A DNA stretch of 40,531 bases from a virus: the IMG/VR virus record IMGVR_UViG_3300022744_000013, positions 1 through 40,531 of that record; one strand, given 5' to 3'. Shown piece by piece: positions 1,926-40,404 of this stretch. The number at the start of each line of letters is the position of its first letter. Position 1 is the first letter of the stretch. The notes beneath the pieces are model-generated. The model did no database searches, had not been told where the DNA came from, and saw only the letters and a program-made list of their open reading frames with translations. The position numbers and the translations under genes were made by a program.

Positions 1926-2342
1926 TGTTTCGACTCCCCGGATCGGTGGCGAGGACCTCCCCGCCGGTTGCCATCCGGTCCTCTCTAAATAGGGACGTGG
2001 TTCGGGAATTCAACCCCTGATCTCTCGACAATGGGAGTAAACCCGAACGGTTATGGAGGGGTCAAGAGTCCCTCCCCCGAACCATCCCCCCGAACGATCG
2101 GGAGAGGGTCAAGCCATCACCACCCCCGGTTGATCCCGATCGGTCCCTTGGTCGGATTAGGACTATACTTAAACCAACGGCAGGTTTGGGGGAATTGAAC
2201 TTTTGGTTTGGTTTCTCCCGGGGATATTATGAGTATAACCCCCGGGAGTTATTTCATCCCCTTAAACCCCGGCAACCTAGCCAAATCGAACGGGGTGTGC
2301 TATGGTCGGGACGACCAATAGGGGTCAAGGAGTCGGAATACC
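1926..2342. promoter_or_regulatory. Divergent intergenic control region
   Basis: This 417-bp gap separates the leftward unit (starting 1925) from the rightward early arm (starting 2343) and must hold both promoters. It contains two imperfect 25-bp direct repeats, 2042-2066 and 2089-2113, both beginning CCCGAACG and ending GGGTCAAG (18 of 25 identical), and one CCCCGGGG-pair element at 2215-2248. A possible rightward promoter is TAGCCA at 2278-2283, a 17-bp spacer and TATGGT at 2301-2306, each four of six against the sigma-70 consensus. The string AACCCCGGCAACC at 2265-2277 recurs at 6072-6084 ahead of the paralogue gene. No gene is seen. Confidence 0.6.
2215..2248. repeat. CCCCGGGG-pair element, copy 1
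   Basis: The arms CTCCCGGGG (2215-2223) and CCCCGGGAG (2240-2248) have centres at 2219/2220 and 2243/2244, 24 bp apart, with a TATTAT block next to the left arm. It belongs to a seven-member intergenic family and lies upstream of the first rightward gene. It could be an operator or an RNA hairpin. Confidence 0.85.
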
Positions 2343-2567
2343 ATGTCTGAAGCTTTCACCATCATCAATCCCGAGCCGAACCGGCTTGCTGCCATCGCGG
2401 CGAAGCACGGACTCAAAGCCATCATGAGAGGCTTCCGGCTGAACACAGCCTACACCCCGAAGCGTTGCCGGGAGGTGGCCGAGGCCTTCACCGGGAAGAA
2501 GTTCGCCGCCCGGGACTACGCCGGGATGATCGAAGCCATTGACCTCGAACTCGCGAAGGAGGACTGA
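2343..2567 (+). CDS. Small hypothetical protein, 74 aa (first early gene)
   Basis: This is a basic, mostly helical 74-aa protein beginning MSEAFTIINPEPNRLAAIAA. AAGGAG at 2327-2332 lies ten bases before the ATG. As the first gene of the rightward arm it is probably expressed early, where phages often place host-takeover proteins. I recognise no domain. The next gene begins five bases after its stop. Confidence 0.8.
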   Translation: MSEAFTIINPEPNRLAAIAAKHGLKAIMRGFRLNTAYTPKRCREVAEAFTGKKFAARDYAGMIEAIDLELAKED

Positions 2568-2571
2568 CCCC

Positions 2572-2835
2572 ATGCAAGCACTTATCAATCTCGAACGGGC
2601 CTGGATCAAGGCCAGAACCATTGGGTTCTTCGACCTCAGCGACCGGAGCCGTTACGTCTCGTCGGATGCGGAGCGCTGGGCCTCTCTTCGGTTCCCGAAG
2701 CCGGGGAAGCCAGAGTTCAAGGTCTATTGCCACAGGTTCGACGTGAGGGAACTCCTCCCGACGACCCGGGGCTTCCCCGACCTCGGCTCGGCACTGGATT
2801 ATCTCAACCTCTTTCTCGAAGGCACTCCAGCATGA
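2572..2835 (+). CDS. Small hypothetical protein, 87 aa
   Basis: The start is the ATG at 2572, nine bases after AAGGAGG (2556-2562), which lies inside the end of the preceding gene, indicating tight co-translation. The product is soluble with mixed charge and aromatic residues and no motif I know. Its stop overlaps the ATG of the following 25-codon gene. Confidence 0.78.
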   Translation: MQALINLERAWIKARTIGFFDLSDRSRYVSSDAERWASLRFPKPGKPEFKVYCHRFDVRELLPTTRGFPDLGSALDYLNLFLEGTPA

Positions 2836-2909
2836 AGACCCTGATCTCTTACCTCCCCTATGCAATCGTCGGGCTGCTCATCGGCCTGTCCCTCGCCCTC
2901 TCGGTTTAA
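2832..2909 (+). CDS. Tiny predicted membrane peptide, 25 aa
   Basis: This frame encodes one Lys near the N-terminus followed by an almost unbroken hydrophobic stretch (residues 4-24), a single transmembrane helix. Its ATG overlaps the preceding stop as ATGA, a typical translational coupling junction, and AAGGAAG follows its stop to serve the next gene. Phages often encode such peptides early, but the function here is unknown. Its shortness leaves real doubt that it is made. Confidence 0.5.
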   Translation: MKTLISYLPYAIVGLLIGLSLALSV

Positions 2910-2920
2910 GGAAGTTTCTC

Positions 2921-3112: not shown

Positions 3113-3138
3113 GCCATCGGCCCACCGGCCTCTCACAG

Positions 3139-3166
3139 CCCCCGGGTTCATCCCCCGGGGGTTTTT
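3139..3166 (+). terminator. Rho-independent terminator
   Basis: CCCCCGGG (3139-3146), a seven-base loop and CCCGGGGG (3154-3161) are followed by TTTTT. It ends the 2343-3112 block. The arm spacing is shorter than in the 24-bp element family, so I treat it separately. Confidence 0.88.
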
Positions 3167-3442: not shown

Positions 3443-3448
3443 TGTATC

Positions 3449-3480
3449 CCCCGGGGATTGGTCTGGTCTAATCCCCGGGG
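3449..3480. repeat. CCCCGGGG-pair element, copy 2
   Basis: The arms CCCCGGGGATT (3449-3459) and AATCCCCGGGG (3470-3480) are exact reverse complements with a 10-base spacer, and their centres are 24 bp apart. It lies 26 bases before the ATG at 3507. Confidence 0.9.
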
Positions 3481-3506
3481 CTTTCCCCTGCTCTCGGAGT
3501 TCCCCA

Positions 3507-3953
3507 ATGGCACAACCCCCGAAATCCCTTTCCCGCGAGTTCCGTATTTACCTCGCCCTCTGGCGTCGGGCCTACGCCCAGCGGAATACCGATCTCCCAT
3601 CAGTCTCCGTCACCGCGTCGTGTTATGCCTCTGCCCTTGCCATGCGCCGGGGTATGTACCGAGCGATACAGCCCTATCGAGAGGAAGCGATCTTCGACCG
3701 GGAACTCTTCCTCGCGGCCGAGGCCTTCGTCATCGGGGTGGTCAAGCCTGAGGACGAACTCTCCCCGCAGCAAGTCGTCTTTCGTCCCAGAGTCGTGCTC
3801 TCGGAACTGGAAGCGGAACTCGAGGCTCTTGGACTGACAGAGAAAGACCTCCTCCTCCCGGCGGAAGTGAAGATCGAACAGGAGCTGGTGGAGTTGCAAA
3901 CCCCGGGGGCTGAGACCAAGCGAGCGACGCCGTTTTATACCAGGGAAGGATGA
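3507..3953 (+). CDS. Hypothetical protein, 148 aa
   Basis: A soluble, charged, mostly helical protein starting MAQPPKSLSREFRIYLALWR. The ATG at 3507 has CGGAG seven to eight bases upstream. The frame is open upstream to 3393, but that would run through the palindromic element, so the internal start is preferred. The stop overlaps the ATG of the next gene. A Glu-rich segment near residues 105-125 may form a coiled coil. Family unknown. Confidence 0.75.
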   Translation: MAQPPKSLSREFRIYLALWRRAYAQRNTDLPSVSVTASCYASALAMRRGMYRAIQPYREEAIFDRELFLAAEAFVIGVVKPEDELSPQQVVFRPRVVLSELEAELEALGLTEKDLLLPAEVKIEQELVELQTPGAETKRATPFYTREG

Positions 3954-6010: not shown

Positions 6011-6041
6011 GGGAAATTCTCTCACCCGCTGACGATACCTA

Positions 6042-6116: not shown

Positions 6117-6710
6117 ATGACTACCCCGGCCAAGACCACCGAGAAGCTCCCGATCACGATGACTGACGGTCGCGTTGTCGAGTTCAACAAGAAGCAGAAG
6201 CTCGTCAAGACCTCGACCATCGACGAAGCCGCCGGCACCATCTCGACGCGGCTGGACTTCCTCAACGGCGAGTCGCGGACCTTCACCATGCCGGCGAGCC
6301 TGATCCTGCGCTTCGCGGCCCACGGCGCGGAGCAGAAGCTCGGCGACGCCATCGCAGGCGAAACCGACGTGAACGATGCTGTCCTTGCCGTCGATGACCT
6401 GATCACCCGCCTGAACGCCGGCGAGTGGAACATCAAGCGCGAGGCCGGCGCCTTCGCCGGGACTTCGGTCCTGATCCAGGCCCTGGTCGAAGCCTCGGGC
6501 AAGACCGTCGAGGCCATCCGCGCCTTCCTCGCTCCGAAGTCGCAAGCCGAGAAGCTCGCCCTCCGCAAGTCGAACCAGCTCCGCCCGATCATCGAGCGGC
6601 TGGAAGCTGACAAGGCGAAGAACTCGAAGTCCTCGGTCGATACCGACAGCCTGCTCGGCGAACTCGGTCTGGGCGAAGCCCCGGCTCCGGCGGGCAAGAC
6701 CAAGGGCTAA
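6117..6710 (+). CDS. Conserved phage protein with LLGELGL motif, paralogue of the 1383-1925 product
   Basis: This soluble 197-aa protein carries AHGAEQK (68-74), RLNAGEW (98-104) and DTDSLLGELGL (175-185), matching AHGLVQK, RLIAGDW and DTAALLGELGL of the leftward 180-aa protein. Here the tail motif is followed by a 12-residue Pro/Ala/Lys extension. AAAGGA lies about nine bases before the ATG at 6117. It is a single-gene unit: a promoter-like sequence precedes it and a perfect 12-bp terminator follows, so it may be strongly and independently expressed. Base use is very rich in GTC/GCC/AAG codons. A DNA-binding or structural role is possible but unproven. Confidence 0.88.
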   Translation: MTTPAKTTEKLPITMTDGRVVEFNKKQKLVKTSTIDEAAGTISTRLDFLNGESRTFTMPASLILRFAAHGAEQKLGDAIAGETDVNDAVLAVDDLITRLNAGEWNIKREAGAFAGTSVLIQALVEASGKTVEAIRAFLAPKSQAEKLALRKSNQLRPIIERLEADKAKNSKSSVDTDSLLGELGLGEAPAPAGKTKG

Positions 6711-6761: not shown

Positions 6762-6796
6762 CCCCTGACGATCCCCCCGATCGTCAGGGGTTTTTT
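6762..6796 (+). terminator. Rho-independent terminator, 12-bp perfect stem
   Basis: CCCCTGACGATC (6762-6773), a five-C loop and GATCGTCAGGGG (6779-6790) are followed by TTTTTT. It terminates the 6117-6710 gene. Confidence 0.95.
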
Positions 6797-6821: not shown

Positions 6822-6850
6822 TTGATATTCCCCGGGAATTATGCCATTGT
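6822..6850 (+). promoter_or_regulatory. Weak candidate promoter overlapping element copy 3
   Basis: TTGATA (6822-6827) is followed after 17 bp by CATTGT (6845-6850), a poor -10. It restarts transcription just after a strong terminator, which is the main reason to propose it. The left CCCCGGG arm falls in the spacer, where a bound protein would block polymerase. Confidence 0.3.
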
Positions 6851-6861
6851 AATCCCCGGGG
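6830..6861. repeat. CCCCGGGG-pair element, copy 3
   Basis: CCCCGGGAATT (6830-6840), a 10-base spacer and AATCCCCGGGG (6851-6861); centres are 24 bp apart. It lies between the terminator at 6762-6796 and the GTG start at 6888. Confidence 0.9.
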
Positions 6862-6887
6862 CATTCCCGCCCCTTGGAGTCGAAGCA

Positions 6888-7196
6888 GTGAACATCAACG
6901 ATTTCCTCAAGCCCGAAGTCTCTGACTTCATCCTCACCCAGACAGACCTGCTCGTAGACCAGGGCATGGACCGGCACACAGCGGAGAGGCTGATCACCAA
7001 GATCTCTTCCGTCATCAACGGGGAGTTCTCAGCCCTTCTCGATGCGTTTGAAGACCTGGAAGACCTCGAAGAGCGTGTCTTCTGCAAGACCGGAATGATC
7101 GCGTACCTCAACCAATGGCTTGCCGAACGCCTCGTCCACGCGGCACTGAGCCAGACCCTCTCTTTCGAAGTCATCTGCCGCCGGGGAGAAGCCTGA
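6888..7196 (+). CDS. Hypothetical protein, 102 aa (GTG start)
   Basis: The likely start is GTG at 6888, eight bases after GGAG; the frame is open upstream to 6795 but that would translate the palindromic element. The protein starts MNINDFLKPEVSDFILTQTD and is helical and acidic with a DLEDLEERV stretch. Its stop overlaps the next ATG. It opens the third rightward block (6888-8339). No family is recognised. Confidence 0.75.
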   Translation: MNINDFLKPEVSDFILTQTDLLVDQGMDRHTAERLITKISSVINGEFSALLDAFEDLEDLEERVFCKTGMIAYLNQWLAERLVHAALSQTLSFEVICRRGEA

Positions 7197-7708
7197 TGCT
7201 CGATGATTTCTTCGCATCGCTCAACGCTGAGATCGAAACCGAACTCGCGAAGACCAGAGCCGCTTCCAACGCCGAGGCGCTGAAGAAAAAAGCCCACAAC
7301 ATGCGGCTGGACCCGAAGACCCGAGCAGCCGCCGGGGAGGAGTACAAGGCCATCCAGGCCGGAATCGAAGCCGAACAGTGGATGACAGTCTCCACCACGG
7401 CGCTGTTCACGGAACAAACCTGCGACGGCTGCGGCTCGGTTCATCAGATCTTCCTCCAGTTCATGGAGTGCCAGCAACTCAAGCGTAAGCCCACGACCCA
7501 GCGCTGGGCGCGAGTGACGAAGCCGACATCATGGGACGAACTCCCGAGAAAAACCCTGATCCAGCCCCACCGGACGCATATCTGCTCCGACTGCTGCCAG
7601 GACCATGGGTTTTACCTCTCTGCGGCCGAAGCCCTGCTCCCGGCGACTCAAGTCTCCGTCCCTTCCCTCACCTACACCCAGGAGGATATCAATGCCCCGG
7701 CCTCTTAA
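7196..7708 (+). CDS. Putative zinc-binding protein, 170 aa
   Basis: Residues around 75-80 contain CDGCGS and residues around 135-140 contain CSDCC, giving two CxxC knuckles that could coordinate one zinc. The N-terminal half is helical and Ala/Lys/Glu-rich. The start ATG overlaps the preceding stop (TGATG). The end overlaps the next gene by 17 bases, and the RBS GGAGGA of that gene lies inside it. A DNA- or RNA-binding role is plausible only from the zinc knuckles. Confidence 0.75.
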   Translation: MLDDFFASLNAEIETELAKTRAASNAEALKKKAHNMRLDPKTRAAAGEEYKAIQAGIEAEQWMTVSTTALFTEQTCDGCGSVHQIFLQFMECQQLKRKPTTQRWARVTKPTSWDELPRKTLIQPHRTHICSDCCQDHGFYLSAAEALLPATQVSVPSLTYTQEDINAPAS

Positions 7709-7877
7709 GCTCGACCGCCCGAAGCGAATCGAAATCTACCTCCCGCAGTCGATCTACTCGGCGTTGCAAGAGGAACTCTTCTCCGAACTGGAGGGCAAAG
7801 TCCCCCATGGCCGGGCGAGTGAAGTCGTCACGACGCTGGTTAAGAACTGGCTGGCTTCTCGGGGGGCGATCCTATGA
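7692..7877 (+). CDS. Small putative ribbon-helix-helix-like protein, 61 aa
   Basis: The segment KRIEIYLPQSIYSALQEEL (about residues 11-29) has the alternating strand then helix pattern of CopG/Arc-type ribbon-helix-helix proteins, with a second helix at ASEVVTTLVKNWLA. GGAGGA lies seven bases before the ATG. Such proteins bind short palindromic DNA as dimers of dimers, so it is one candidate to bind the CCCCGGGG elements; this is inference. The stop overlaps the next ATG (7874). Confidence 0.6.
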   Translation: MPRPLKLDRPKRIEIYLPQSIYSALQEELFSELEGKVPHGRASEVVTTLVKNWLASRGAIL

Positions 7878-8134
7878 CAGTGAGCTTCACCTCCCAACCC
7901 CAGCGCTCCGACGGGCGGGCTTACGTCCCATGCGAACCTCACCAAGCCACTTCCTGGGCCGTAGTCAAGACGGAGAAGTTCACTTCCCGGGGAATCAAGC
8001 GTGAAGTCTCCCGGGTCATCACCCGGTGCAAGACCAAGACCGAAGCCGACGGGATGGTTCAATCCAACAACCGCTCCTTCGCCCCGAAGCCGAGGTCGGA
8101 AGTCCGCCAGCTCGGTCGTCGCATCATTCAGTAA
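7874..8134 (+). CDS. Small basic hypothetical protein, 86 aa
   Basis: Starts MTVSFTSQPQRSDGRAYVPC; Lys/Arg-rich, with two short strand-like segments and a basic C-terminus (RSEVRQLGRRIIQ) compatible with nucleic-acid binding. Joined to the preceding gene by ATGA overlap. No family is recognised. Confidence 0.72.
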   Translation: MTVSFTSQPQRSDGRAYVPCEPHQATSWAVVKTEKFTSRGIKREVSRVITRCKTKTEADGMVQSNNRSFAPKPRSEVRQLGRRIIQ

Positions 8135-9752: not shown

Positions 9753-9782
9753 TTGACCATTTCCCCCCGGGTATTTCATATT
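9753..9782 (+). promoter_or_regulatory. Candidate promoter overlapping element copy 4
   Basis: TTGACC (9753-9758), an 18-bp spacer and CATATT (9777-9782, four of six against TATAAT) precede the ATG at 9822. The left arm of the palindromic pair lies inside the spacer. Confidence 0.4.
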
Positions 9783-9797
9783 CAAATTCCCCGGGGG
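9763..9797. repeat. CCCCGGGG-pair element, copy 4
   Basis: CCCCCCGGG with centre 9768/9769 and CCCCGGGGG with centre 9792/9793, again 24 bp apart, between the helicase stop and the ATG at 9822. Confidence 0.85.
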
Positions 9798-9821: not shown

Positions 9822-10022
9822 ATGACAACCCAAGCCACCATCCTCCGCATTGCCGAACTCCGGCAGAAAGCCCGAGAGAACTCCCTCACCATCGAGGAGA
9901 TGAAGGAGGGCATCGCCTTCCTCCGCCAGGAACGCCTCGCAATGCCCGTGACCTCGGCCAAGCCCCGGACCAAAGCCCCGGCACCGAACGCGGATGATCT
10001 GCTCTCGGAACTCGGACTTTAA
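9822..10022 (+). CDS. Small helical protein with C-terminal LLSELGL, 66 aa
   Basis: Starts MTTQATILRIAELRQKAREN: a charged helical N-terminal half, then a Pro/Ala/Lys linker, and the C-terminus NADDLLSELGL (LLSELGL at 60-66). The same tail ends the 180-aa protein at 1383-1925 and lies near the end of the 197-aa protein at 6117-6710, although the rest of this protein is unrelated to them. The linker-plus-tail organisation resembles a tethered docking peptide. The frame is open upstream to 9753, but the ATG after the element is preferred. It lies between helicase and nuclease genes, suggesting a replication or recombination accessory role. Confidence 0.8.
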   Translation: MTTQATILRIAELRQKARENSLTIEEMKEGIAFLRQERLAMPVTSAKPRTKAPAPNADDLLSELGL

Positions 10023-13107: not shown

Positions 13108-13139
13108 GGCCCGGAGTTCCCCCACTCCGGGCCTTTTTT
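13108..13139 (+). terminator. Rho-independent terminator, 10-bp perfect stem
   Basis: GGCCCGGAGT (13108-13117), a six-base loop and ACTCCGGGCC (13124-13133) are followed by TTTTTT. It separates the recombination block from the MazG-like gene. Confidence 0.95.
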
Positions 13140-13565: not shown

Positions 13566-14876
13566 ATGCGATTGATCCCCCGCGATAGCCTCATTATCGC
13601 CCCGAACCGCCAGCGGAGAGAGTTTGAACCGGATGCGTTGACCGACCTCGCTAACTCGATTTCGTCTCGAGGGCTAATGCATCCAATCGTGGTTCGGGAA
13701 ACCCCCGCCGGGCCGGTTCTCGTGGCCGGTGAACGCCGATTGCGCGCTCTCGATACTCTCGCCCTACTCGGTTCGCCAACGCGTTGCAATGGGCTAGAAA
13801 TCGACCCTACGACCATCCCCGTCATCTCCCTTGGCGAACTCTCTCACCTCGAAGCTGAAGAGGCCGAACTCGATGAAAATCTCCGTCGTCAAGATCTCTC
13901 CTGGCAGGAACGGTCGGAAGCCCTTGCGCGTCTGCATCGACTGCGTATTGCTCAAGCCAAAGCTGCCGGGACAACCCACTCGATCGCGGATACGCTTCGT
14001 GAAGTCGAAACGACTGACTATACGACTGACCGCCAGTCGATCCTTCTCGCCGACCACTTGGACAATCCCCTTGTCGCCGGGGCCAAATCTGAAAAAGAAG
14101 CCTTCAAAGCCCTCAAGCGCCAGGAGGACAAAGCCAAGTCTGAACGGCTGGCGGAAGTTGTCGGTGCTTCTTACAACTCATCCGTCCACAACCTTCATCA
14201 CACCGACTGTCTTGATTGGCTGGCCGGATGCCCTGACAATACCTTCGACGTCATTCTCACAGATCCGCCATATGGGATGAATGCCCAGGGCTTTGGCGAT
14301 GGTGGGGGGACGATGGTCAACTCCGAACACCACTACGACGACAGCCCCGAGGCCTGGCGCACCCTCATGACGGCTTTCATCCCCGAGGCTTTCCGCGTCG
14401 CCAAGCCCCAGGCTCACGCCTATGTCTTCTGCGACTTCGACAAGTTCCACGAACTCAAGACCATCATGCAATCCGCTGGGTGGTACGTCTTCCGCACTCC
14501 GCTGATCGTCCACAAGCTCGGCTCCGGTCGAGTCCCTCTTCCTGAACACGGACCTCGTCGCCAGTATGAAACCATCCTCTATGCAATCAAAGGGAACCGT
14601 CCGGTTACTGGTATCTACTCCGACGTTATCTCTTGCCGTCTGGAGGAAAATCTCGGTCATGGCGCAAACAAGCCCGTCGAGCTTTACGTCGATCTCCTTA
14701 AGCGCAGTACCCGGCCCGGCGATACGGTCCTGGACGCGTTCGCTGGTTCCGGCACTATTTTCCCTGCAGCGCATGCGTGCAAGCTATACGCCACAGGACT
14801 GGAAATGAGCGCCGAATACTACGGCATCAGCGTCGCCCGGCTCAACGCCCTCGACGACGAACCGGCTTTCGTCTGA
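13566..14876 (+). CDS. ParB-like domain fused to DNA methyltransferase, 436 aa
   Basis: Residues 1 to about 200 are a ParB/Spo0J-type domain with VAGERRLRAL (53-62), the conserved ParB box. Residues 205-436 are a beta-class amino-methyltransferase: DPPY (233-236) comes first and the SAM-binding DAFAGSG (390-396) last. The predicted reaction is transfer of methyl from S-adenosylmethionine to adenine N6 (or cytosine N4) in DNA, possibly to protect phage DNA from host restriction. The ParB part may supply sequence recognition or CTP binding. ParB-methyltransferase fusions are known in phages and mobile elements. The stop overlaps the next ATG. Confidence 0.9.
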   Translation: MRLIPRDSLIIAPNRQRREFEPDALTDLANSISSRGLMHPIVVRETPAGPVLVAGERRLRALDTLALLGSPTRCNGLEIDPTTIPVISLGELSHLEAEEAELDENLRRQDLSWQERSEALARLHRLRIAQAKAAGTTHSIADTLREVETTDYTTDRQSILLADHLDNPLVAGAKSEKEAFKALKRQEDKAKSERLAEVVGASYNSSVHNLHHTDCLDWLAGCPDNTFDVILTDPPYGMNAQGFGDGGGTMVNSEHHYDDSPEAWRTLMTAFIPEAFRVAKPQAHAYVFCDFDKFHELKTIMQSAGWYVFRTPLIVHKLGSGRVPLPEHGPRRQYETILYAIKGNRPVTGIYSDVISCRLEENLGHGANKPVELYVDLLKRSTRPGDTVLDAFAGSGTIFPAAHACKLYATGLEMSAEYYGISVARLNALDDEPAFV

Positions 14877-15307
14877 TGCGTCGTGTCATCATCGAGTCGC
14901 CCTTCGCCGGCGATACCGTCCGCAACATCGCGTATGCCAGGGCCTGTGTCCGCGACTCCCTCCTTCGCAAAGAATCCCCCTTGGCCTCTCACCTCCTCTA
15001 CACCCAGTCCGGTATCCTCGAAGACCTCGTCCCAGAAGAACGCTCCCTTGGCATCCGGGCTGGTCTCGAATGGTCCTTCCACGCTGACGCCATCATCTTC
15101 TGCCTCGACCACGGCTGGTCCACTGGTATGCACGAAGCCCTTCGCTATCACCGGGGCTTCCACAAGACCATCGAATACCGCTACCTCTATGCCACTTCCC
15201 AGGAGTCTGCCCCTCATGATCCCCTCCGGCCCATCGAACGCCAAACTGATGATAGTCGCGGACTGCGTGTCCTACCGGGATCTTCAGACCAAGACAATCC
15301 TCTGTGA
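14876..15307 (+). CDS. Nucleoside deoxyribosyltransferase/DUF7768-like protein, 143 aa
   Basis: Residues 1 to about 110 resemble phage DUF4406/DUF7768-type Rossmann proteins related to nucleoside 2-deoxyribosyltransferases: VIIESPFAGD at the N-terminus, a helical AYARACVRDSL segment, PEERSLGIRAGLEWSFHADA, and DHGWSTGMHEAL. These are thought to act on nucleotides or their bases. The last 31 residues are low-complexity and overlap the polymerase gene by 92 bases, so the natural stop may have been lost by a frameshift. It begins by TGATG overlap with the methyltransferase gene. Confidence 0.72.
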   Translation: MRRVIIESPFAGDTVRNIAYARACVRDSLLRKESPLASHLLYTQSGILEDLVPEERSLGIRAGLEWSFHADAIIFCLDHGWSTGMHEALRYHRGFHKTIEYRYLYATSQESAPHDPLRPIERQTDDSRGLRVLPGSSDQDNPL

Positions 15308-16892
15308 CCGGGAGTTCGACAAGCTCCTAGCCGAGGCCGGCGTCATCCGGTCGCAAACCTTCGTCACCGCCCTAATCCGGGAGCAAGTCAATGGACAAAC
15401 CTTCGACACCCAGGTCGCACAGACCAAGCGCGAAATCACTCCTGACCACTCCCCTCTTCATGATCGTTACGTCAAGCGTTCTGTCCTGGCTGGTCTTGAT
15501 CTACTCAATCAAGACATTGATCTCGTTCGCCCGAAGATCATCTTGGCTTTGGGGAATGGTCCTCTCTTCGCTCTCTGCGGTCGTTGGGGGATAAAGTCCT
15601 GGCGCGGCTCCATCCTCACCTACACCACACCGAAAGGTCACACCTGCTATGTTATTCCTACTTACCCCCCGAGTTACATCTACGGCGTTTGGAAGGATCG
15701 AAACATCGCTATCCACGATGTACGAAAGGCCTGGACTGCTGCAAACCATGCTCAGCCTCTCCGACCCCCGGAGTACAACTTCATCATCGAACCGTCTTTT
15801 CCCGAGGCTGCTCGCACGCTTCAGTCCCTTCTCACTCGGGTTCGATCGGGACCGGCAAAGCTATCGGTTGACATCGAAACACGCGGCGGGCATATTGCTT
15901 GTCTCGGTTTGGCTTGGTCTGCCACTGACGCGATCTGCATCCCACAGATGAGGGCAGTGGTCCAGGAAATGCCGAACTGGCAAACCCGCATCCACTACTG
16001 GCGGGAAGAGGAGGAAACCTTCCTCACCTACCTCCTCTACCAGCTTCTCACCCATCCGAACTGCCAGGTCATCGGACAGAACTTCATCTACGATGCGCAG
16101 TATATCTACCGACACTTCCACTTCATCCCGAACTTCGCCCGGGACACCATGCTTGCCCAGCACTCCATGTTCTCTTCCATGCAAAAGGGCCTCGATTTCC
16201 TCTCCTCCATGTACACAGACTTCCATGTCTACTGGAAGGACGAGTCTAAAAACTGGGACCCGAAACTCGGAGAACGCCAGCTCTGGATATACAACTGCAA
16301 AGACTGTGTCGTCACTTACGAAATCGACGAGGCCCAGCAATCCGCCATCGACGCTTTCACTGCCACCACCTGGCCCGAACTCCGGGAAGTCCATGACTTC
16401 CAACAATCCCTGTTCTACCCCGTTCTCCAGACCATGATCACTGGCATCCGAACCGACAATGAACGGAAGGCCGAACTCTCAGCCGAACTCCATTCCGCCA
16501 TTCAATCCCGAGAGGCCTGGCTCACCGACCTCCTCGGTTTCCCTCTGAATATCCGATCCCCGAAGCAAATGCAGGATACGTTCTACCGGCTCCTGGGGCA
16601 GAAAGAGGTCAAAAAGCGGAGCAAGAACGGCGCCTCGGTCACTACCGACGACTCGGCTTTGGAAACCATTGCTACCCGCGAACCGCTTCTCAAGCCCCTC
16701 TGTGACGTTATCCGGGAACTCCGAAGCCTCGGGGTCTTCCGCTCGACCTTCCTCGAAGCCCCGGTCGACCACGACCAGCGCATGAGGTGTTCCTTCAACA
16801 TCGCCGGAACGGAAACCTACCGTTTTAGCAGTTCTGAAAACGCCTTTGGCTCGGGCATGAACCTGCAAAACATTCCAAAAGGAGACGATTGA
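15216..16892 (+). CDS. polA: Family A DNA polymerase, N-terminal part: UDG-like + 3'-5' exonuclease + thumb
   Basis: A 558-aa protein. Residues 1-180 follow a uracil-DNA-glycosylase-like fold (KLMIVADC, LALGNGPL, VIPTYPPSYI), but the usual GExPG and HPS motifs are altered, so catalysis is doubtful. The DEDD exonuclease follows with VDIET (218-222), NFIYDAQ (289-295) and YNCKD (359-363), all acidic residues present. The polymerase thumb and the motif GMNLQNIP (547-554) end the protein eight bases before the ATG of the palm/fingers gene. AGGAG lies about ten bases before the ATG at 15216; ATG 15249 is an alternative. A missing single base near 16889-16892 would join the two genes. Confidence 0.85.
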   Translation: MIPSGPSNAKLMIVADCVSYRDLQTKTILCDREFDKLLAEAGVIRSQTFVTALIREQVNGQTFDTQVAQTKREITPDHSPLHDRYVKRSVLAGLDLLNQDIDLVRPKIILALGNGPLFALCGRWGIKSWRGSILTYTTPKGHTCYVIPTYPPSYIYGVWKDRNIAIHDVRKAWTAANHAQPLRPPEYNFIIEPSFPEAARTLQSLLTRVRSGPAKLSVDIETRGGHIACLGLAWSATDAICIPQMRAVVQEMPNWQTRIHYWREEEETFLTYLLYQLLTHPNCQVIGQNFIYDAQYIYRHFHFIPNFARDTMLAQHSMFSSMQKGLDFLSSMYTDFHVYWKDESKNWDPKLGERQLWIYNCKDCVVTYEIDEAQQSAIDAFTATTWPELREVHDFQQSLFYPVLQTMITGIRTDNERKAELSAELHSAIQSREAWLTDLLGFPLNIRSPKQMQDTFYRLLGQKEVKKRSKNGASVTTDDSALETIATREPLLKPLCDVIRELRSLGVFRSTFLEAPVDHDQRMRCSFNIAGTETYRFSSSENAFGSGMNLQNIPKGDD

Positions 16893-17635
16893 TGACCTCC
16901 TCCACCGTCCTCGCCCATCAGGCTCTTCCCAACATCCGCAAGCTCTTCATCCCTGACCCGGGCATGACCTTCTTCGACATCGATCTCGACTCGGCCGACC
17001 TCCGCATCGTTGTCTGGGAGTCAGACTGCGTTGAGATGAAACAAATGTTCGCCGAAGGTCTCAAGCCCTACGTCGAAGTCGCTAAGGAATACTATCGTGA
17101 CCCAACTATCACCAAACACCACCCTTCCTACAAGCTATTCAAAGCCCTCTGTCATGGCACAAACTACCTCGGGACTCCAGCAGGTCTGGCCGGACGAATT
17201 GGCCTCGATGTTGCTGAGACAGAAAAAATCCAGAAGTGGTATTATGAGCATTTCCCGGAAATCAGAACTTGGCAAGACGCTCTCTGCTCTCGTCTCAGGT
17301 CTGATCGCTATGTCGAAAATGTCTTCGGCTACCGCATCTGGTTCTTCGATCGAATGGAAGGCACCATCTTTAACCAAGCTGTTGCTTCAATCCCTCAATC
17401 TACCGTTGCCTGTCTCATCAATCGAGGCTATCGAAATATCCATGATAACGAAGAACAAATTCAAGTTCTCCTTCAGGTTCACGACTCCCTCGCAGGGCAG
17501 TTTCCCACACACCTTCGCGACGAAAGTGTCGATAAGATTGTTAACCACTGCTCTGTTCCGCTACCTTATGCCGAACCCCTAACCATCCCGGTGGGGATCG
17601 TGACGAGTGAACACTCTTGGGGGAGCTGCGGCTAA
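16892..17635 (+). CDS. polA: Family A DNA polymerase, C-terminal part: palm and fingers
   Basis: This 247-aa piece starts at ATG 16892, overlapping the previous TGA, with AAGGAG at 16879-16884. It carries the active site: motif A DLDSADLR (31-38, catalytic Asp31), the O-helix KALCHGTNYLG (84-94) and motif C VHDS (196-199, catalytic Asp198). His88 sits where E. coli Pol I has Phe762, and motif C ends in Ser rather than the usual Glu. Bases 17090-17570 are poorer in GC than their surroundings. The protein could assemble with the N-terminal part as a split enzyme, or the gene may be frameshifted. Confidence 0.85.
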   Translation: MTSSTVLAHQALPNIRKLFIPDPGMTFFDIDLDSADLRIVVWESDCVEMKQMFAEGLKPYVEVAKEYYRDPTITKHHPSYKLFKALCHGTNYLGTPAGLAGRIGLDVAETEKIQKWYYEHFPEIRTWQDALCSRLRSDRYVENVFGYRIWFFDRMEGTIFNQAVASIPQSTVACLINRGYRNIHDNEEQIQVLLQVHDSLAGQFPTHLRDESVDKIVNHCSVPLPYAEPLTIPVGIVTSEHSWGSCG

Positions 17636-18860: not shown

Positions 18861-18900
18861 AAACCCCCGGGGATTATTAAACCGTAATCCCCGGGGGTTT
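18861..18900. terminator. Bidirectional hairpin at the convergent junction; CCCCGGGG-pair element, copy 5
   Basis: AAACCCCCGGGGATTA (18861-18876) and TAATCCCCGGGGGTTT (18885-18900) are exact inverted repeats with an 8-base loop, and the centres of the GC arms are 24 bp apart. It lies between the ends of the rightward and leftward arms. Leftward transcripts would carry TTTTCTT after the stem and rightward ones TTTC, so it can serve as a two-way terminator while belonging to the seven-member family. Confidence 0.85.
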
Positions 18901-24500: not shown

Positions 24501-24672
24501 TATCCTGATTACGACGGATATCCAGCCCGTCCTGCGCCTGCTGATGTGCCTGGACGCGTGCAGGGTTCCCCTGCATAGGGACGGCACCCGGAAAAGGTTG
24601 TGGCTGAACTTGAGGGGCCGGAGGCTGAACCTTCAACCGAGCAAGGACTGCTGGATCAGTGATTTCAGGCAT
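21502..24672 (-). CDS. Large ejection/internal virion protein, 1056 aa
   Basis: The largest protein in the window. It is Ala/Gln/Glu-rich and helical, with a Pro/Gln-rich N-terminus, a Gly/Ala-rich central stretch (about residues 350-470), long coiled-coil segments (about 530-620) and a Gly/Ala-rich hydrophobic segment near 975-1010. Podoviruses inject such proteins to build a DNA conduit across the cell envelope. There is no lysozyme motif I can see. It is the third of a three-gene ejection block, starting adjacent to the 273-aa gene, with the fibre gene after it. Confidence 0.75.
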   Translation of the reverse strand: MPEITDPAVLARLKVQPPAPQVQPQPFPGAVPMQGNPARVQAHQQAQDGLDIRRNQDTRAAEELDLARRREAIAQQEADFKAKNRAANQGVDASAQAETAAGHAISLMTNLKIIQEAVRKDPKAEQPGMAEALFGDKVPSQYKGALQSSQRQVVEQSYGPILESTIYLATGAAAQADQVKRLAAGLVPTASDDAPAKRAKAIRLAAEIQKARSIAGPANVKVQEALSNLEQAFPQMYGVGAGGLSAEPDAPEQGYKLSGTKKVIPYPEGYEAKVIGAINSVPVGKLTKDMYLYVRRQADKEAGFNVDPQYDYGADRVVADFNAGHKLTGLQPMERQLEGMGQMAADAAKSPVGTFLMNAGNAGSAGLPALFAGREGRFAKDLADEENPKSALAGDILGSLAPTAGVEGALTRAGMGKVGADVAANAAYGGVKGFNEANPEDALGAGLEGVAFGGGASLLGRGAIKGARGFLAPETDQAIQDLLHSKGFDLPSPREDNLAALPVELQGLDEAGLRKVQAKAQQHLTLNESLRAQNAAKEAEIEAANRNAKANYALDERNAEGSMEALRGKQDAAIAAIAEKNKAAQQGLLSARGFGKASIEAQQKLLQIGEENFPTTREGILRKHPELEKLAPKAEPAEPILANPKLKQSPYEPDDVLQSRIALIEKHLGLDNTGGKAEIPPVDLTTFQRAGLGHLEGLLQDIPGVRGVREGTFQQWSKKKAAEVLALIGKTVPDNVKPGFEMNDHVHKALTEGYETLRPHVQGVVSKEFTGKVKALRDLFLGETQNLGQGLDDRIAIWGNIQNALDYLTKGGKFDGEGYRQFNEELRTVMRSLGAKGDNETQTVAEQKALRIVEELGREADNLVAKNNPAAGARLKNLNKAYARQLRLDVASGTGPSVAAEGVPSPKEYISGIRRMSPAERDAGVPRDFSRGKALDQKPAMDAERTLGDRPNREGSLRGVGLATAAAATGLGGAAAGVTGALTVPALLGTAGILSYTPGIKRITQAMIDGKIGSTADDILANIRHDPELKKAGAKLPSAALKNLVTQYLRAKAQEK

Positions 24673-30022: not shown

Positions 30023-30751
30023 TCAGACGATCTGACCCTGAGCGAAGGGACGGTTGATGTGAGCGATGTTGTAGTACACCGTCGCATTGTTGTACGTCGC
30101 AGTGACGGTCCCCGAGATAGCAGCGGTCGAAACCGCCGACATGGTAACGAGGGTGCCGCTGGGGTCGATGTCCGTGACGGTAGCGCCTGAGGCAACGCCC
30201 GTCCCCGACAGATACGCCCCGGCAAACCAGCCGTCAGCGTTCGACACGCGGAGCTGGGTGCTCCCCGAGTTGTTGACGCAGTTGGTCTTGGCAACGGTCT
30301 GAGTCGCCGCGATGATGACGCGAGCGTTGAGGACCTGCTTGCCGTTGCCCAAGGCACCGCCCTGGCCGGCTGCGGCGATGGCGAAGGTGGTATCCGCAGC
30401 AACCGAGGCCGAGCAGTTGACAGGAACAACCCCGCCGATCTGGACCCAGAGGAAGTTGCCCGAACTCGCCGGAACCATGGCGACACCGAGAGTCCGGCCC
30501 AGGCCGGCGGTGTTCGGGACTTCAGTCGCATTGTACACCACCTGTCCGCTGGCAATGGTCTGAGTGATGACGACAAGGCCGAACTGACGGATCGAACCGT
30601 TGGCCTTGACGTACATGAACTCACCACCACCCCAGTAGGGATCGACGGCATCGACGATGAGGCCCGGAAGCAGGCGAGCCGTGCTGTCCGGGAGGTTGTA
30701 GGGGGTCAGCTGGGGATTGCCCACCGGCCCATTGATCAGGCTGTATGCCAT
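30023..30751 (-). CDS. Putative head decoration/structural protein, 242 aa
   Basis: Directly downstream of the major capsid gene and followed by a hairpin terminator, as expected for a highly made virion protein. The product is Gly/Ala/Thr/Val-rich and strand-forming throughout, with few charged residues. The phrase DGWFAGAYLSGTGVASGATV is typical of beta-rich decoration or Ig-like surface proteins. AAGGAAGC lies upstream of the ATG at 30751. The CCCCGGGG element at 30771-30802 separates it from the capsid gene. Confidence 0.72.
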   Translation of the reverse strand: MAYSLINGPVGNPQLTPYNLPDSTARLLPGLIVDAVDPYWGGGEFMYVKANGSIRQFGLVVITQTIASGQVVYNATEVPNTAGLGRTLGVAMVPASSGNFLWVQIGGVVPVNCSASVAADTTFAIAAAGQGGALGNGKQVLNARVIIAATQTVAKTNCVNNSGSTQLRVSNADGWFAGAYLSGTGVASGATVTDIDPSGTLVTMSAVSTAAISGTVTATYNNATVYYNIAHINRPFAQGQIV

Positions 30752-30770
30752 TGAAGCTTCCTTTCGAAAT

Positions 30771-30802
30771 CCCCGGGGATTATAATTCTCAAACCCCCGG
30801 GG
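30771..30802. repeat. CCCCGGGG-pair element, copy 6
   Basis: CCCCGGGGAT, centre 30774/30775, and CCCCCGGGG, centre 30798/30799, 24 bp apart. It lies in the 63-bp gap between the capsid stop and the decoration-protein start. Read leftward it contains TATAAT beside an arm. Confidence 0.88.
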
Positions 30803-30814
30803 AATTGACCCTCA

Positions 30815-31798
30815 TCAGGCCTTGAGAACGGCCTGCAGCCGGCGATTGGTGACGACCATGTTGCCCATCCAGAGCACCGGGATGACAGTCGCGTCCTGGT
30901 TGTACGGCTGCATCTGATCCTGCACCGAGAGGTTGGCGTCCTTGTGGACAACCAAGTCGATGTAGTCGGTGTTGAGGAAGTACATGTGAGCAGCGGGGAT
31001 GCCGCTGCCGCCGTCGAAGATCACATCGGCGGACTTGTACTTCAGGCTGGTGAAGCCGCCGTTCGCGTCGCCGGAACCGTTGTCAGCGGTGTAGCGCTTG
31101 AACGAGACCTGGCTGGCTTCATAGAACGAGAAGTAGTCGTTCGACGAAACGATCAGATCGGGCTTGTCATCACCACGGACCTGGTTCAGCCACAGGGGCA
31201 GCATCAGGCTCGTCTCGATGGTCGTGGCCGAGGGGGTGACAGCGCCACCACCCTGGAGCGGAGCCGCAGCCGACTGGACCGCCGAGGCCCAGAAGCTCCA
31301 GGTCGACGAGTCGATCCCGCCGACGACACCCGTGCCGGTGTCAGAGACGAGGGCTTGCAGACCACCGATCTGGTTCGGAAGGGTCCCGTCCGAGTACAGA
31401 TCGTAGGAGAAGTTGTTCTTGAACGTCCGCATGGCGTTCTTGATCCGGGCCTTGGCGAGCTTCACGATCGCGCTGGAACCGGAGTTCGTGCGGAGTTCCA
31501 GACCCGAAGCCACGACGTTCAGGGCGATCTGGCGCCACTGGAATTCCGCCGCCGTGATGACGTCGGACTGCTGGATGTTCAGGATATCGTAACCGGAGTA
31601 CCGCTGGTACGTCCCGTTCGAGTTGTAGTCCAGCGGCTGGGCGATGGTCAGACCACCGTCTTCGAGGCGGATTTGCCCCTTGGTCGCGATGCGATTGTAA
31701 AGCGCATTGTTCCGCGAGATGTTGTCCTTCACGTCGGAGGCATGGTTCCGCCAGGTGGTGGCGACCAGCTCGGTGAAGGTGGAACTCGGAGTTGCCAT
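30815..31798 (-). CDS. Major capsid protein, 327 aa
   Basis: It lies after the scaffold gene. The protein starts MATPSSTFTELVATTWRNHA and has an N-terminal arm, then EFQWRQIALNVVASGLELRTNSG, a long helix with KNAMRTFKNNF, and a late VIPVLWMGNMVVTNRRLQAV strand pair, consistent with the HK97-type capsid fold. AAAGGT lies upstream of the ATG at 31798. The size is normal for small podovirus capsids without a cleaved N-terminal domain. Confidence 0.9.
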   Translation of the reverse strand: MATPSSTFTELVATTWRNHASDVKDNISRNNALYNRIATKGQIRLEDGGLTIAQPLDYNSNGTYQRYSGYDILNIQQSDVITAAEFQWRQIALNVVASGLELRTNSGSSAIVKLAKARIKNAMRTFKNNFSYDLYSDGTLPNQIGGLQALVSDTGTGVVGGIDSSTWSFWASAVQSAAAPLQGGGAVTPSATTIETSLMLPLWLNQVRGDDKPDLIVSSNDYFSFYEASQVSFKRYTADNGSGDANGGFTSLKYKSADVIFDGGSGIPAAHMYFLNTDYIDLVVHKDANLSVQDQMQPYNQDATVIPVLWMGNMVVTNRRLQAVLKA

Positions 31799-39049: not shown

Positions 39050-39682
39050 TTAGCCCTCGATTTGCTTGATTGGGGAGTGGGTCTGGGCCCAGTGGCTGGC
39101 GTCGATGATCTTCGCCGGCATTTCGACGACGAAGTTGTTCTGGACGTTGGTCTGACCGACATGGCGGGCACCGAACCCGAGGGCTTTGGAGGAGACTTCC
39201 AGGGCCTTCATTGCCACGTCGATGTTCCGGGTCTTTTCGAGGGACTCTGCGATGATCTGGAGCGATTGGTCAGCCAGGCCACGAAAGCGCTCTTCAATCG
39301 TGGCGATCAGAAAAGGGTTGGTAACGTCGTCCCGACGCTTGGCGAGAGCGGCTTGGAACGCATCTGACCCCATGACGACAGAGAGCCAGTTTTCGCTGCG
39401 GTCGAAGCGGCTGGCGAGTTCTCGCTGGGTGATGGTGGGTTCGGCCAGGATCACGTCGATCATGGCTTCGTGGGTGTAGTGGACACGCTGGAGGCGGTTG
39501 TGGGAGTAGTCGTCGCCTTGCTTGTAGCCCTTGGCCGTGGCGATGCCCTGGTAGAGGGGGTCGTTGACCGATCGGGGGATGTAGTTGGCCTTAGCCTGGA
39601 CCGCAGCGGGGTCCGGGTCTGGGGTCGGATCGGGTCCGGGGGGCGAGGTGACGCCGGCTGCGAGGGCTTCGTAGTCGATCAT
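39050..39682 (-). CDS. terS: Terminase small subunit, 210 aa
   Basis: The middle part TITQRELASRFDRSENWLSV (about residues 82-101) is a helix-turn-helix as in TerS DNA-recognition domains. It is followed by a helical region (RLRGLADQSLQ-type segment, 120-170) suitable for ring oligomerisation and a short C-terminal tail that could contact the large subunit. The N-terminus is Pro/Asp-rich. AAGGA lies upstream of the ATG at 39682. It precedes the esterase, HNH and terL genes. Confidence 0.82.
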   Translation of the reverse strand: MIDYEALAAGVTSPPGPDPTPDPDPAAVQAKANYIPRSVNDPLYQGIATAKGYKQGDDYSHNRLQRVHYTHEAMIDVILAEPTITQRELASRFDRSENWLSVVMGSDAFQAALAKRRDDVTNPFLIATIEERFRGLADQSLQIIAESLEKTRNIDVAMKALEVSSKALGFGARHVGQTNVQNNFVVEMPAKIIDASHWAQTHSPIKQIEG

Positions 39683-39721
39683 GGGAGGGGTCCTTGGGCA
39701 GGGAAGGGTGGAGGGCGGGGG

Positions 39722-40150
39722 TTAACGTCGGAGAGGGTCGCCGGGGGCGTATTGGTGGAAGGGGACCTGTTCGCCGAGGATGGGATTCTGAGCCGGTCGG
39801 GTCTGGAGACGGTCGGAGAGGGTCTGAAGCCAGCTGTCGGCCCACCCGGTCGTGGTGTTGGAAGTCGGCACCCCGCGATCGTTGAGGGTCTGGGCCGAAG
39901 AGCGGTTTTGGAGCATCCGCCGCCCGTCGTTGACCAGCATGGTGAAGATCGAACCGGCATCGAGGCCGGCTTTTTGGGCTTCAGGGGTCCGGGAGAGGAT
40001 TTCAGCCTGGGCCTGGAGAGTCGCGTCGTTCGATCGGTTCATGTTATCCACCCGATCAGCGTCAGAATACCCATCCGGGTTCTTCCCCTGGATTCGTGCC
40101 ATGATCGTGGCCATTGTGTTGTCCATGGGTTCGGGGCCAGGGTAGGGCAT
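39722..40150 (-). CDS. Hypothetical first late protein, 142 aa
   Basis: Starts MPYPGPEPMDNTMATIMARI; helical middle part, Asn/Asp/Ser-rich, with a proline-containing C-terminus. It precedes terS by 39 bases, and a putative AGGA lies upstream of the ATG at 40150. The position suggests a packaging or virion role, but no family is recognised. Confidence 0.7.
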   Translation of the reverse strand: MPYPGPEPMDNTMATIMARIQGKNPDGYSDADRVDNMNRSNDATLQAQAEILSRTPEAQKAGLDAGSIFTMLVNDGRRMLQNRSSAQTLNDRGVPTSNTTTGWADSWLQTLSDRLQTRPAQNPILGEQVPFHQYAPGDPLRR

Positions 40151-40404
40151 TTTCGGTCCTCCAGAGGGGGGTTTCGCTCGGAATGAGCCTGGTGGGCCTC
40201 CCGCCGAATGTCAACCCTCTTGCGGCCCGCCTTCCGGCCCTTTTGACCCCCTAAATCCCCGGTTATTATCCCTCCCAAATCCCCGGGGGTTTCCTCCCTC
40301 TTTTTGCCGTATTTTCGCAGGGTTTTGGGGGTCCAGGAGAGGGCAAAAAGGGGAGACACACAGGGAGGGGTTCAAAAAGTGCGCTCTCACAGGAGCGGGT
40401 AATG
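40151..40404. other. Non-coding leader upstream of the late leftward arm
   Basis: No gene is visible between the start of the first late gene at 40150 and the genome junction. The stretch contains one copy of the 24-bp-spaced CCCCGGGG element (40257-40289) and is G-rich on the plus strand, continuous with 1-1023 in the circle. It should hold the promoter and leader of the late operon. An ATAAT-like block lies in the element's spacer on the minus strand, but I could not find a matching -35 box. Confidence 0.6.
40257..40289. repeat. CCCCGGGG-pair element, copy 7
   Basis: CCCCGG, centre 40260/40261, and CCCCGGGGG, centre 40284/40285, 24 bp apart. It lies 107 bases upstream of the first late gene. 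The left arm is the most worn in the family. Confidence 0.75.

Follow-up and report, generated by a model that had tools for sequence, protein, structure and literature searches.

Why would a phage genome repeat one pair of arms, at one spacing, in seven of its gaps between genes, and what reads them? The question is raised by the window considered here, a stretch of viral DNA of 40,531 nucleotides. The original prediction held that seven copies of a paired-arm element mark the boundaries of gene blocks and that the element is either bound by a protein or forms a conserved RNA hairpin. Based on the comparison of sequences described below, we think it likely that the copies are DNA operators or stoperator-like sites, not RNA elements, of a putatively self-regulating RHH-like protein of 61 residues encoded at 7692-7877.

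Seven dyads at the borders of gene blocks

All seven copies were found, and their arm centres are exactly 24 bp apart (Table 1). When the window was searched with CCCGGGGATT-N10-AATCCCCGGG, allowing up to 3 mismatches, the seven copies alone matched, against an expected 0.01. Pairs of CCCGGG at 24-bp spacing number 7 in the window and 0.015 per shuffle in 200 second-order Markov shuffles, none of which held more than 1; the paired motif is thus far rarer in shuffled sequence than in the window. Six of these pairs mark copies 1-3 (2217/2241, 3450/3474, 6831/6855) and copies 4-6 (9766/9790, 18866/18890, 30772/30796), and copy 7 was identified via a CCGG pair (40259/40283). The seventh CCCGGG pair belongs to an extra, degenerate copy within a called gene, which was absent from the earlier listing.

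The paired self-complementary arms that had been described are present, but they form parts of a longer unit, a single 34-bp inverted repeat whose 6-bp centre varies, and A/T-rich triplets on either side extend each copy to about 40 bp overall. Both arms agree among the copies of one genome; centres and outer flanks vary. The placement of the copies in non-coding gaps at block borders agrees with the gene calls once a single start is revised: the gene caller's TTG start at 6822 put copy 3 inside a gene, and with the alternative GTG at 6888, which has GGAG 8 nt upstream, copy 3 falls in the leader. Copies 2-4 immediately precede plus-strand starts, and the gene that follows copy 7 is the first called late gene of the minus strand.

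Table 1. Dyad copies in the window and the features around them
Feature	Positions	Strand	Context
Dyad copy 1	2215-2248		Divergent gap, 1383-1925(-) / 2343-2567(+)
Dyad copy 2	3448-3481		25 nt 5' of the start of 3507-3953(+)
Hairpin followed by T-tract	6762-6790	+	Looks like an ordinary intrinsic terminator; just 5' of copy 3
Dyad copy 3	6829-6862		Heads the gene row with the RHH-like gene; putative autoregulatory operator
First gene of putative RHH operon	6888-7196	+	Putative GTG start, GGAG
170-aa protein, two CxxC motifs	7196-7708	+	Adjoins the RHH-like gene; could be the binder instead, or a partner
61-aa RHH-like protein	7692-7877	+	Proposed binder; putative DNA-facing strand residues R12, E14, Y16
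Possible degenerate eighth copy	7985-8018		CCCGGG pair 24 bp apart, in called gene 7874-8134
Promoter-like TTGACC-N18-CATATT	9753-9782	+	Overlaps copy 4; consensus match only
Dyad copy 4	9764-9797		24 nt 5' of the start of 9822-10022(+)
Dyad copy 5	18864-18897		Convergent junction; AAA/TTT lengthen the repeat to 18861-18900
Dyad copy 6	30770-30803		Between major capsid gene 30815-31798(-) and 30023-30751(-)
Dyad copy 7	40256-40289		105 nt 5' of the start of 39722-40150(-); late-gene leader

A conserved geometry with a spelling of its own in each genome

Do related phages carry the same element? At least three dyads were found in 19 of the 25 fetched relatives, with a spelling particular to each genome. 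The sites number 99 in 18 of 26 records, most genomes having between three and nine copies listed; they are mostly intergenic, but some occupy divergent gaps and 10, copy 3 among them, lie within called genes. What the relatives have in common is the long dyad with its spacing, whereas the self-complementarity of each arm is seen in some of them only. It is the geometry that is conserved and not the letters. Half-site identity is 0.794 within genomes (288 pairs) versus 0.495 between them (6153 pairs) across 20 genomes, and the capsid-junction site was closer to its own genome's sites than to orthologous sites elsewhere in 14 of 14 cases. Because the spelling is genome-specific, a scan of IMG/VR that used the window's own letters as the pattern gave 0 matches; an initial structure-only palindrome scan stayed near background among the records listed.

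For the capsid junction, 80 loci were reduced to 59 examined, with near-duplicates removed by eye, which together with the window make 60 rows. Pair covariation in 32 capsid-junction sites, picked for having an even-centred dyad, was 0.689, versus 0.203 when shuffled (0/500) and at most 0.172 when slid; loci left out of this alignment although they bear a dyad include L017, L044, L052, L061, L024 and L073. The span was exactly 34 nt in 123 of 125 matches to a model that is gap-free by construction, and the length is not absolutely fixed, since L024 and L073, at least, are odd-centred at the capsid junction.

A spelling common to the copies within, not between, genomes could also arise from a mobile or gene-converted small repeat that has no specific binder, similar to T4-type promoter/stem-loop cassettes. 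We regard such an origin as exceedingly improbable, given that centres and outer flanks vary within a genome in which both arms agree, that the length is near constant and that the arms track strand residues of a protein, as described below.

DNA site or RNA hairpin

An RNA hairpin was our first working idea, based on the pair covariation; it was demoted by wobble and loop-asymmetry tests at sites outside the capsid junction. In such a scheme, hairpins in leaders and intercistronic gaps would stabilize, process or regulate transcripts and be bound by a phage RNA-binding protein. The covariation is strong, and six of the seven window copies gave RNA folding z scores of -1.85 to -4.73 (copy 7, -0.53); in addition, a start codon follows within 1-37 nt of the end of 49 of 60 co-directional sites. 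A DNA dyad would, however, give equal covariation, and some dyads are found within called genes or in divergent gaps. A loose hairpin would seldom keep a near-constant length of 34 nt, and Rfam 15 gave 0 gathering-score matches in the window.

Of the 21 distinct upstream sites in loci fetched by the RHH-like protein, 18 entered the wobble and loop tests. Among 63 distinct non-capsid sites there were 29 G-U and 29 A-C mismatches, that is, no wobble bias, and because the two are at parity these sites look like DNA sites. At the capsid junction the corresponding counts were 11 and 8 at positions 3-13 (p 0.65) and 26 and 15 at positions 1-14 (p 0.12). Sense-strand GNRA loops are over-represented there (7 of 32 versus 1.5 expected; antisense, 0), but elsewhere the strands do not differ (1 sense versus 1 antisense in 46 sites; 0 versus 0 in 18 sites). 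Thus, near-constant geometry, a variable centre, genome-specific spelling, G-U/A-C parity at non-capsid sites and the ties to the 61-aa protein described below favour the protein-binding element of the original prediction. Its RNA-hairpin alternative is disfavoured in general and keeps some room after the major capsid gene, where the sense GNRA loops occur; as an account of the dyads as a whole we judge it quite unlikely.

Promoter and terminator readings of the dyads

Some dyads overlie promoter-like sequences, and others stand at gene ends. At 48 non-capsid co-directional sites, promoter-like scores were higher in sense than in antisense (29 of 48; p 0.0009). Simply counting TTG-type -35 boxes where a promoter should have them showed no clear enrichment, and consensus promoter matches in the half of the window that holds copy 4 were not in excess (4 versus 4.8 in shuffles). 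A sigma-70 promoter was considered as the sole meaning of the dyad and rejected: the scores support it for a subset of sites and not for those at the capsid junction. A search for a single-subunit RNA polymerase (PF00940) gave no match, yet the control genomes gave none either.

Could the dyads instead be intrinsic or bidirectional terminators? At copy 5 and at sites in three relatives (G001, G004, G005), the stops of both converging genes are 0-26 nt away, and the flanks are A-rich on the 5' side and T-rich on the 3' side. The T-rich stretch, however, is 3 nt only, with A mirrored opposite, short of a T-tract; hairpins with true T-tracts are separate features, at 3139-3161, 6762-6790 and 13108-13133. 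Many copies immediately precede start codons, and conserved inner A/T boxes combined with genome-specific letters would be unexpected for terminators. Terminator scans list no window dyad as a stem, a weak argument as they missed 6762-6790 too. We therefore consider termination a very improbable function for the family. One terminator-scan call, at 40285, shares sequence with the end of copy 7.

A candidate binder in the row headed by copy 3

If the dyads are protein-binding sites, which protein binds them? The 7692-7877 product, which the original prediction gave as an example for binding tests, is predicted to have an RHH fold; we call it RHH-like only, because the profile matches to RHH families miss the cut-off. 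Of 22 family members, one had the best Pfam match to RHH_6 (E 0.0014) and one that to RHH_1 (E 0.034), both below the family cut-off, and the window protein itself had no Pfam match. Five PDB profile matches (E 0.44-1.9) were led by an unrelated channel protein, with RHH proteins only some of the five, and Foldseek with the 61-residue monomer model gave 0 structural matches. That AF2 monomer (pLDDT 80.9) has helices at 19-29 and 41-56 and no assigned N-terminal strand; residues 12-17 alternate polar and hydrophobic and are followed by P18.

The gene is linked to the dyads by position. In 15 of 22 carriers, the row of genes to which it belongs is headed by a dyad, 582-1523 nt upstream of it. 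Among 53 new loci fetched by the RHH-like protein alone, 43 had a match (E <=3) to a dyad model built from capsid-junction sites only. Of the 92 dyad matches, 33 fall 500-1500 nt upstream of the gene, an interval that makes up 7.1% of the sequence (p 1.9e-15), although these loci are partly redundant and the distinct upstream sites number 21; 14 of 40 eligible new loci are without an upstream dyad. Four of the 22 carriers (G014, G019, G021, G023) had no detected dyad family, and a contrast set of G014, G019-G021, G023 and OP596615 gave 1 dyad match at E <=10 across 251 kb. Conversely, G010 and G017 (contigs of 30.6 and 35.7 kb) have dyads, but no RHH-like homologue was detected in them. No bacterial homologue of the RHH-like protein was confirmed among 54 stretches of bacterial genomes.

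The protein is also linked to the spelling. In 37 genomes that each have the RHH-like protein and at least 2 dyads, strand positions 12/14/16 predict site distance (beta 0.295, p 0.0015), and residues 18-56 are not predictive once the strand is included (beta 0.039, p 0.34). The inward-facing positions 13/15/17 are as informative (beta 0.321, p 0.001), a result not foreseen by a model of base contacts only. Within residues 1-28, positions 12, 14 and 16 belong to the six that vary most, and P18 is nearly fixed. The N-terminal strand thus appears, from these sequence comparisons, to track dyad spelling with the rest of the protein accounted for, and other proteins correlate with it too.

That last point bears on whether the operators belong to a different binder, be it the 170-aa CxxC protein of 7196-7708, a factor from the host or some further conserved protein. 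The CxxC protein is encoded in that gene row as well; 19 of the 26 records have a homologue, a distribution similar to that of the RHH-like protein. In simple Mantel tests, which are confounded by ancestry, as is the RHH test, the correlation with the sites was stronger for 5 of 7 other conserved proteins than for the RHH strand (r 0.448 for the 7196-7708 protein and 0.515 and 0.521 for two others, all as whole proteins, versus 0.367). A column-by-column test of 25 families did not single out the RHH-like protein: columns 14 and 15 ranked 69th and 73rd of 5064, and the strand window 194th of 3376. The top ranks of that test are owed in large part to a single family in which one genome has a gap. 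A different binder nonetheless seems somewhat unlikely to us, since in the RHH-like protein the signal is confined to the strand once the rest is included and falls where residues 12, 14 and 16 are highly variable beside a nearly fixed P18; a host factor, we infer, would hardly explain switches of spelling among related phages.

A model for the dyads and the RHH-like protein

We propose that dimers or tetramers of the 7692-7877 protein bind dyad-symmetric sites of about 40 bp and that, when copy 3 is bound, the protein would repress its own operon. Where a dyad overlies a sigma-70-like promoter, as at copy 4, the bound protein would exclude RNA polymerase. Dyads without a visible promoter, such as the convergent copy 5 and the capsid copy 6, may be stoperator-like, hindering a passing polymerase or marking the borders of units. 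In this model, the spelling is private to each phage because changes in the site and in the DNA-facing strand go hand in hand.

We speculate further that this direction-blind, symmetric operator/stoperator network, with its 61-aa RHH-like protein and no detected integrase, acts as a private code, since related phages switch spelling along with the putative DNA-facing strand of the protein; we put this idea forward tentatively and hold it to be possible rather than likely. If true, the code would time the gene blocks of the phage that carries it and, where two phages share a cell, could silence or spare rivals according to their spelling, an immunity-like barrier without lysogeny.

Comparison with known systems

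Is there a precedent for such a network? As described in the cited passages, Cluster A mycobacteriophages such as L5 and Bxb1 carry many mostly intergenic operator/stoperator copies, most of them outside promoters, whose consensus differs by phage and correlates with a phage-encoded DNA-binding repressor; the sites are 13-bp, asymmetric and in one orientation (24 copies in L5, 34 in Bxb1), the repressor is HTH and the phages are temperate (PMC3029335, PMC6550527). The window and its relatives share with that account multiple, mostly intergenic copies, some within promoter-like sequence, and a spelling that varies by phage. They differ from it in having dyads of about 34-40 bp rather than asymmetric sites in a single orientation, fewer copies, an RHH-like protein and no detected integrase (PF00589 had no match in 25 of 26 records, and OP596615 had one match below the cut-off). 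Of the joint divergence of consensus and repressor, genome-specific spelling and strand-site co-variation are seen here; the candidate binder is proposed and not singled out.

The ESAS of Cluster K, in the cited excerpts, are imperfect inverted repeats just 5' of starts whose consensus differs among subclusters; their 17-bp arms have a spacer of mostly 4-13 bp and accompany a 13-bp SAS, and their authors thought sites for DNA-binding proteins of differing specificity likelier than RNA hairpins, while the excerpts name no binder (PMC3203893, PMC12699233). Unlike the ESAS so described, the window dyads have near-constant spacing and a proposed binder. The 13-bp SAS motif, with 2 mismatches, matched the window twice versus 2.06 expected, not above chance.

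Arc and Mnt are small RHH repressors; the half-sites of Arc are separated by a linker of about 5 nt, and those of NikR are about two turns apart. In AmrZ, according to the portion of the source cited, N-terminal strand residues 18, 20 and 22 read bases, the protein represses its own gene and the half-sites flank an A/T-rich linker of about 5 nt (PMC3325190). As far as these accounts go, the 7692-7877 protein resembles AmrZ, Arc and Mnt in its small size, alternating residues on a putative N-terminal strand, putative autorepression and two proposed half-sites about an A/T-rich linker, and it differs from AmrZ and Arc in that the arm centres of its proposed sites are 24 bp apart.

The best-known examples of dispersed repressor sites come from mycobacteriophages that are temperate. 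A similar logic now appears in a group of uncultured phages, in which the sites are dyads and the candidate regulator is a different and tiny protein, probably as a genome-wide control network whose code changes from phage to phage. The 37 genomes with the protein and at least two dyads form a natural data set on how a beta-strand reader of DNA chooses its sites.

Dyads in the Window and Its Relatives

As originally noted, the window carries seven copies whose arm centres lie 24 bp apart, and the dyad pattern, allowing up to three mismatches, matches only these seven places (0.01 expected). Each copy is a single 34-bp inverted repeat with a variable 6-bp centre and A/T-rich triplets on both sides. 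The self-complementarity noted for the arms is limited to the window and some relatives and is therefore not the conserved feature. Of the paired motif anticipated in relatives, the size carries over, with a same-size dyad behind the major capsid gene in many of them; the letters differ. Judging from its identical end repeats, the 40,531-bp genome would be circular or terminally redundant.

Based on a major capsid protein search of IMG/VR (best 80 of 92 loci taken), we inspected 60 rows, namely, 59 loci and the window, with near-duplicates omitted. Thirty-two of these rows with an even-centred dyad align without gaps. Their covariation is 0.689 versus 0.203 when shuffled (no shuffle among 500 reaches it) and no more than 0.172 with partners slid. 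The way in which rows and centres were chosen biases this alignment toward pairing, and some dyad-bearing rows are missing from it, including the odd-centred loci L024 and L073. A model of these 32 capsid-junction sites yields 125 matches (79 distinct sites) in 57 pieces of 26 records, i.e., 25 relatives and the window. Genome-specific matrices (score of at least 21.5) find 99 sites in 18 of the 26, a count that includes two sites twice because their records carry end repeats: 60 in co-directional gaps, 13 divergent, 8 convergent, 10 in called genes, and 8 at record ends. Forty-nine of the 60 co-directional sites stop 1 to 37 nt upstream of the following start codon. A de novo look gives G013 and G015 dyad families of their own, and G006 has six sites once the threshold is lowered. 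In five relatives, a dyad sits 543 to 624 nt from the start of a gene of ~780 to 810 aa, annotated as DNA polymerase in MW202489; the window lacks a copy at this place.

Spelling is genome specific. Across 20 genomes, half-site identity is 0.794 within a genome (288 pairs) versus 0.495 between genomes (6153 pairs), for sites collected with genome-specific matrices, which biases toward within-genome likeness; the likeness is also present in model matches obtained without such matrices. In 14/14 genomes, the capsid-junction site is closer to its own genome's other sites than to its orthologues.

Features of the window and of relatives' records (G numbers and MW202489)
Record	Feature	Position (strand)	Remark
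Window	Identical end repeats	1-127; 40405-40531	127 bp
Window	Gene	1383-1925 (-)	C-terminal peptide
Window	Gene	6117-6710 (+)	C-terminal peptide
Window	Copy 3	6829-6862	Counted inside called gene
Window	RHH-like gene	7692-7877 (+)	61 aa
Window	Eighth, degenerate pair	7985-8018	Inside called gene
Window	Promoter-like TTGACC-N18-CATATT	9753-9782	Overlaps copy 4
Window	Gene	9822-10022 (+)	C-terminal peptide
Window	ParB-methyltransferase gene	13566-14876 (+)	
Window	Family A DNA polymerase	14883-17635 (+)	Apparently split over two adjoining frames
Window	Gene	21502-24672 (-)	1056 aa
G012	Dyad in ~780-810-aa gene	5740	
G017	Dyad in ~780-810-aa gene	4015	
G018	Dyad in ~780-810-aa gene	25517	
G022	Dyad in ~780-810-aa gene	24675	
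MW202489	Dyad in ~780-810-aa gene	23991	
Window	Consensus half-site		CCCCCGGGGATTA
G001	Consensus half-site		TCCCCGTAGATTA
G008	Consensus half-site		gCCCGCGGGGATAT
G009	Consensus half-site		CtGGTGCGGGTTAT
G012	Consensus half-site		taTGTGTaGGTTAT

DNA Site or RNA Hairpin

Covariation is expected whether a dyad acts as DNA or pairs as RNA, and two asymmetry tests were applied (G-U versus A-C mismatches and GNRA loops). At positions 3 to 13 of 63 distinct non-capsid sites, the sense strand holds 29 G-U and 29 A-C mismatches, and thus RNA wobble is not preferred; GNRA loops number one sense and one antisense. The near-constant span (34 nt in 123 of 125 matches, from a model built gap-free) and the presence of dyads in divergent gaps also fit a DNA site. 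At the capsid junction, G-U and A-C counts are 11 and 8 at positions 3 to 13 and 26 versus 15 over all 14 positions (p 0.12). Only there are sense GNRA tetraloops over-represented (7/32 versus 1.5 expected; antisense, 0; alignment A1 of the 32 sites), an excess that the DNA reading does not explain, and here the dyad may also act as RNA. The flanks are unlike those of a terminator, the T-rich 3' stretch being just 3 nt, with A in the mirror position at the 5' flank.

For a promoter-like layout with the -35 box at the dyad's left border and the -10 box within it, 48 non-capsid co-directional sites score 6.48 sense versus 4.26 antisense (p 0.0009), and 13 capsid-junction sites show no sense excess (4.59 versus 5.63). 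We therefore distinguish two classes of dyads, those over promoter-like sequences and those at gene ends without one.

A Candidate Binder

The candidate binder is a ribbon-helix-helix (RHH)-like protein with polar/hydrophobic alternation at its N terminus and two predicted helices; it has homologues in 22/26 records and no confirmed homologue in the bacterial genomes searched. The RHH protein AmrZ reads bases with three alternating strand residues and represses its own gene on binding (PMC3325190). In the present family, residues 12, 14, and 16 of the putatively DNA-facing strand have entropies of 2.96, 2.59, and 2.92 bits (52 non-redundant rows), matched by some helix positions, and nearby P18 is nearly fixed.

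In 15 of the 22 carriers, a dyad 582 to 1523 nt upstream of the RHH-like gene heads its gene row, and several of these upstream dyads, copy 3 included, are preceded by a hairpin with a T-tract (judged by eye). The closest listed dyad is >3 kb away in G004, G015, and MW202489, the last with a weaker site 1.3 kb upstream, and none is listed for four carriers.

For an independent check, the RHH-like protein alone served to retrieve 63 loci, 53 from records not previously used. In 13 of the 53, three or more similar dyads cluster de novo, above all 10 shuffles; several of these loci are near-identical, and one (L163) has a cluster unlike the dyad family. The capsid-junction-only model matches (E up to 3) in 43/53, and 33 of the 92 matches fall 500 to 1500 nt upstream of the gene, a zone that makes up 7.1% of all sequence (p 1.9e-15; the upstream sites comprise 21 distinct sequences, L144 being nearly the same virus as G007). 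Such a dyad is present in 26 of the 40 new loci with sufficient upstream sequence. A contrast set (251 kb of six records) gave one match at E up to 10; G020 and OP596615 lack the homologue, and G014, G019, G021, and G023 carry it and are exceptions to the proposed binder.

In a distance-matrix regression on 37 genomes, site divergence follows strand residues 12/14/16 (weight 0.295, p 0.0015) and 13/15/17 (0.321, p 0.001); residues 18 to 56 carry no weight (0.039, p 0.34), although they correlate with the sites when tested alone (r 0.237, p 0.0015), and neither do residues 2 to 11 (-0.101). Counting against the binder, five of seven other proteins exceed the strand in simple Mantel r (up to 18 genomes), and, in a scan of 25 families, columns 14 and 15 rank only 69th and 73rd among 5064 columns and the strand window 194th of 3376. 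Support for the assignment thus comes chiefly from linkage to the operon, the retrieval test, and the contrast within the protein.

Other Genes

Three products without evident relationship have C termini in or near LL(G/S)ELGL, possibly a shared docking tail. A loose regular expression, picked after the peptide was noticed, hits the final 30 aa of 43/1414 called proteins (19/26 records) and 9/8189 internal 30-aa windows. A ParB N-terminal domain fused to an N6/N4 DNA methyltransferase has relatives in 23/26 records. The family A DNA polymerase seems to be split over two adjoining frames and is preceded by a uracil-DNA-glycosylase-like stretch; the Pfam match of its first frame, scanned alone, ends at profile position 133/381. 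The 1056-aa protein has no Pfam or PHROG match and relatives in 8/26 records, the window counted. Tyrosine integrase (PF00589) has no match in 25/26 records, and OP596615 has one sub-cut-off match.

Comparison with Known Systems

Among the papers listed by the literature searches (titles and abstract starts, longer lists capped, with most subscription journals outside), there is no apparent description of this system. Its closest known counterparts come from mycobacteriophages, namely, the Cluster A stoperators and the Cluster K ESAS. The present dyads lack the asymmetric site of stoperators, and the SAS motif of Cluster K is not above chance in the window. Dispersion and phage-specific spelling are common to all; the present system differs in the geometry of its dyads, in the number of copies, and in the candidate protein.
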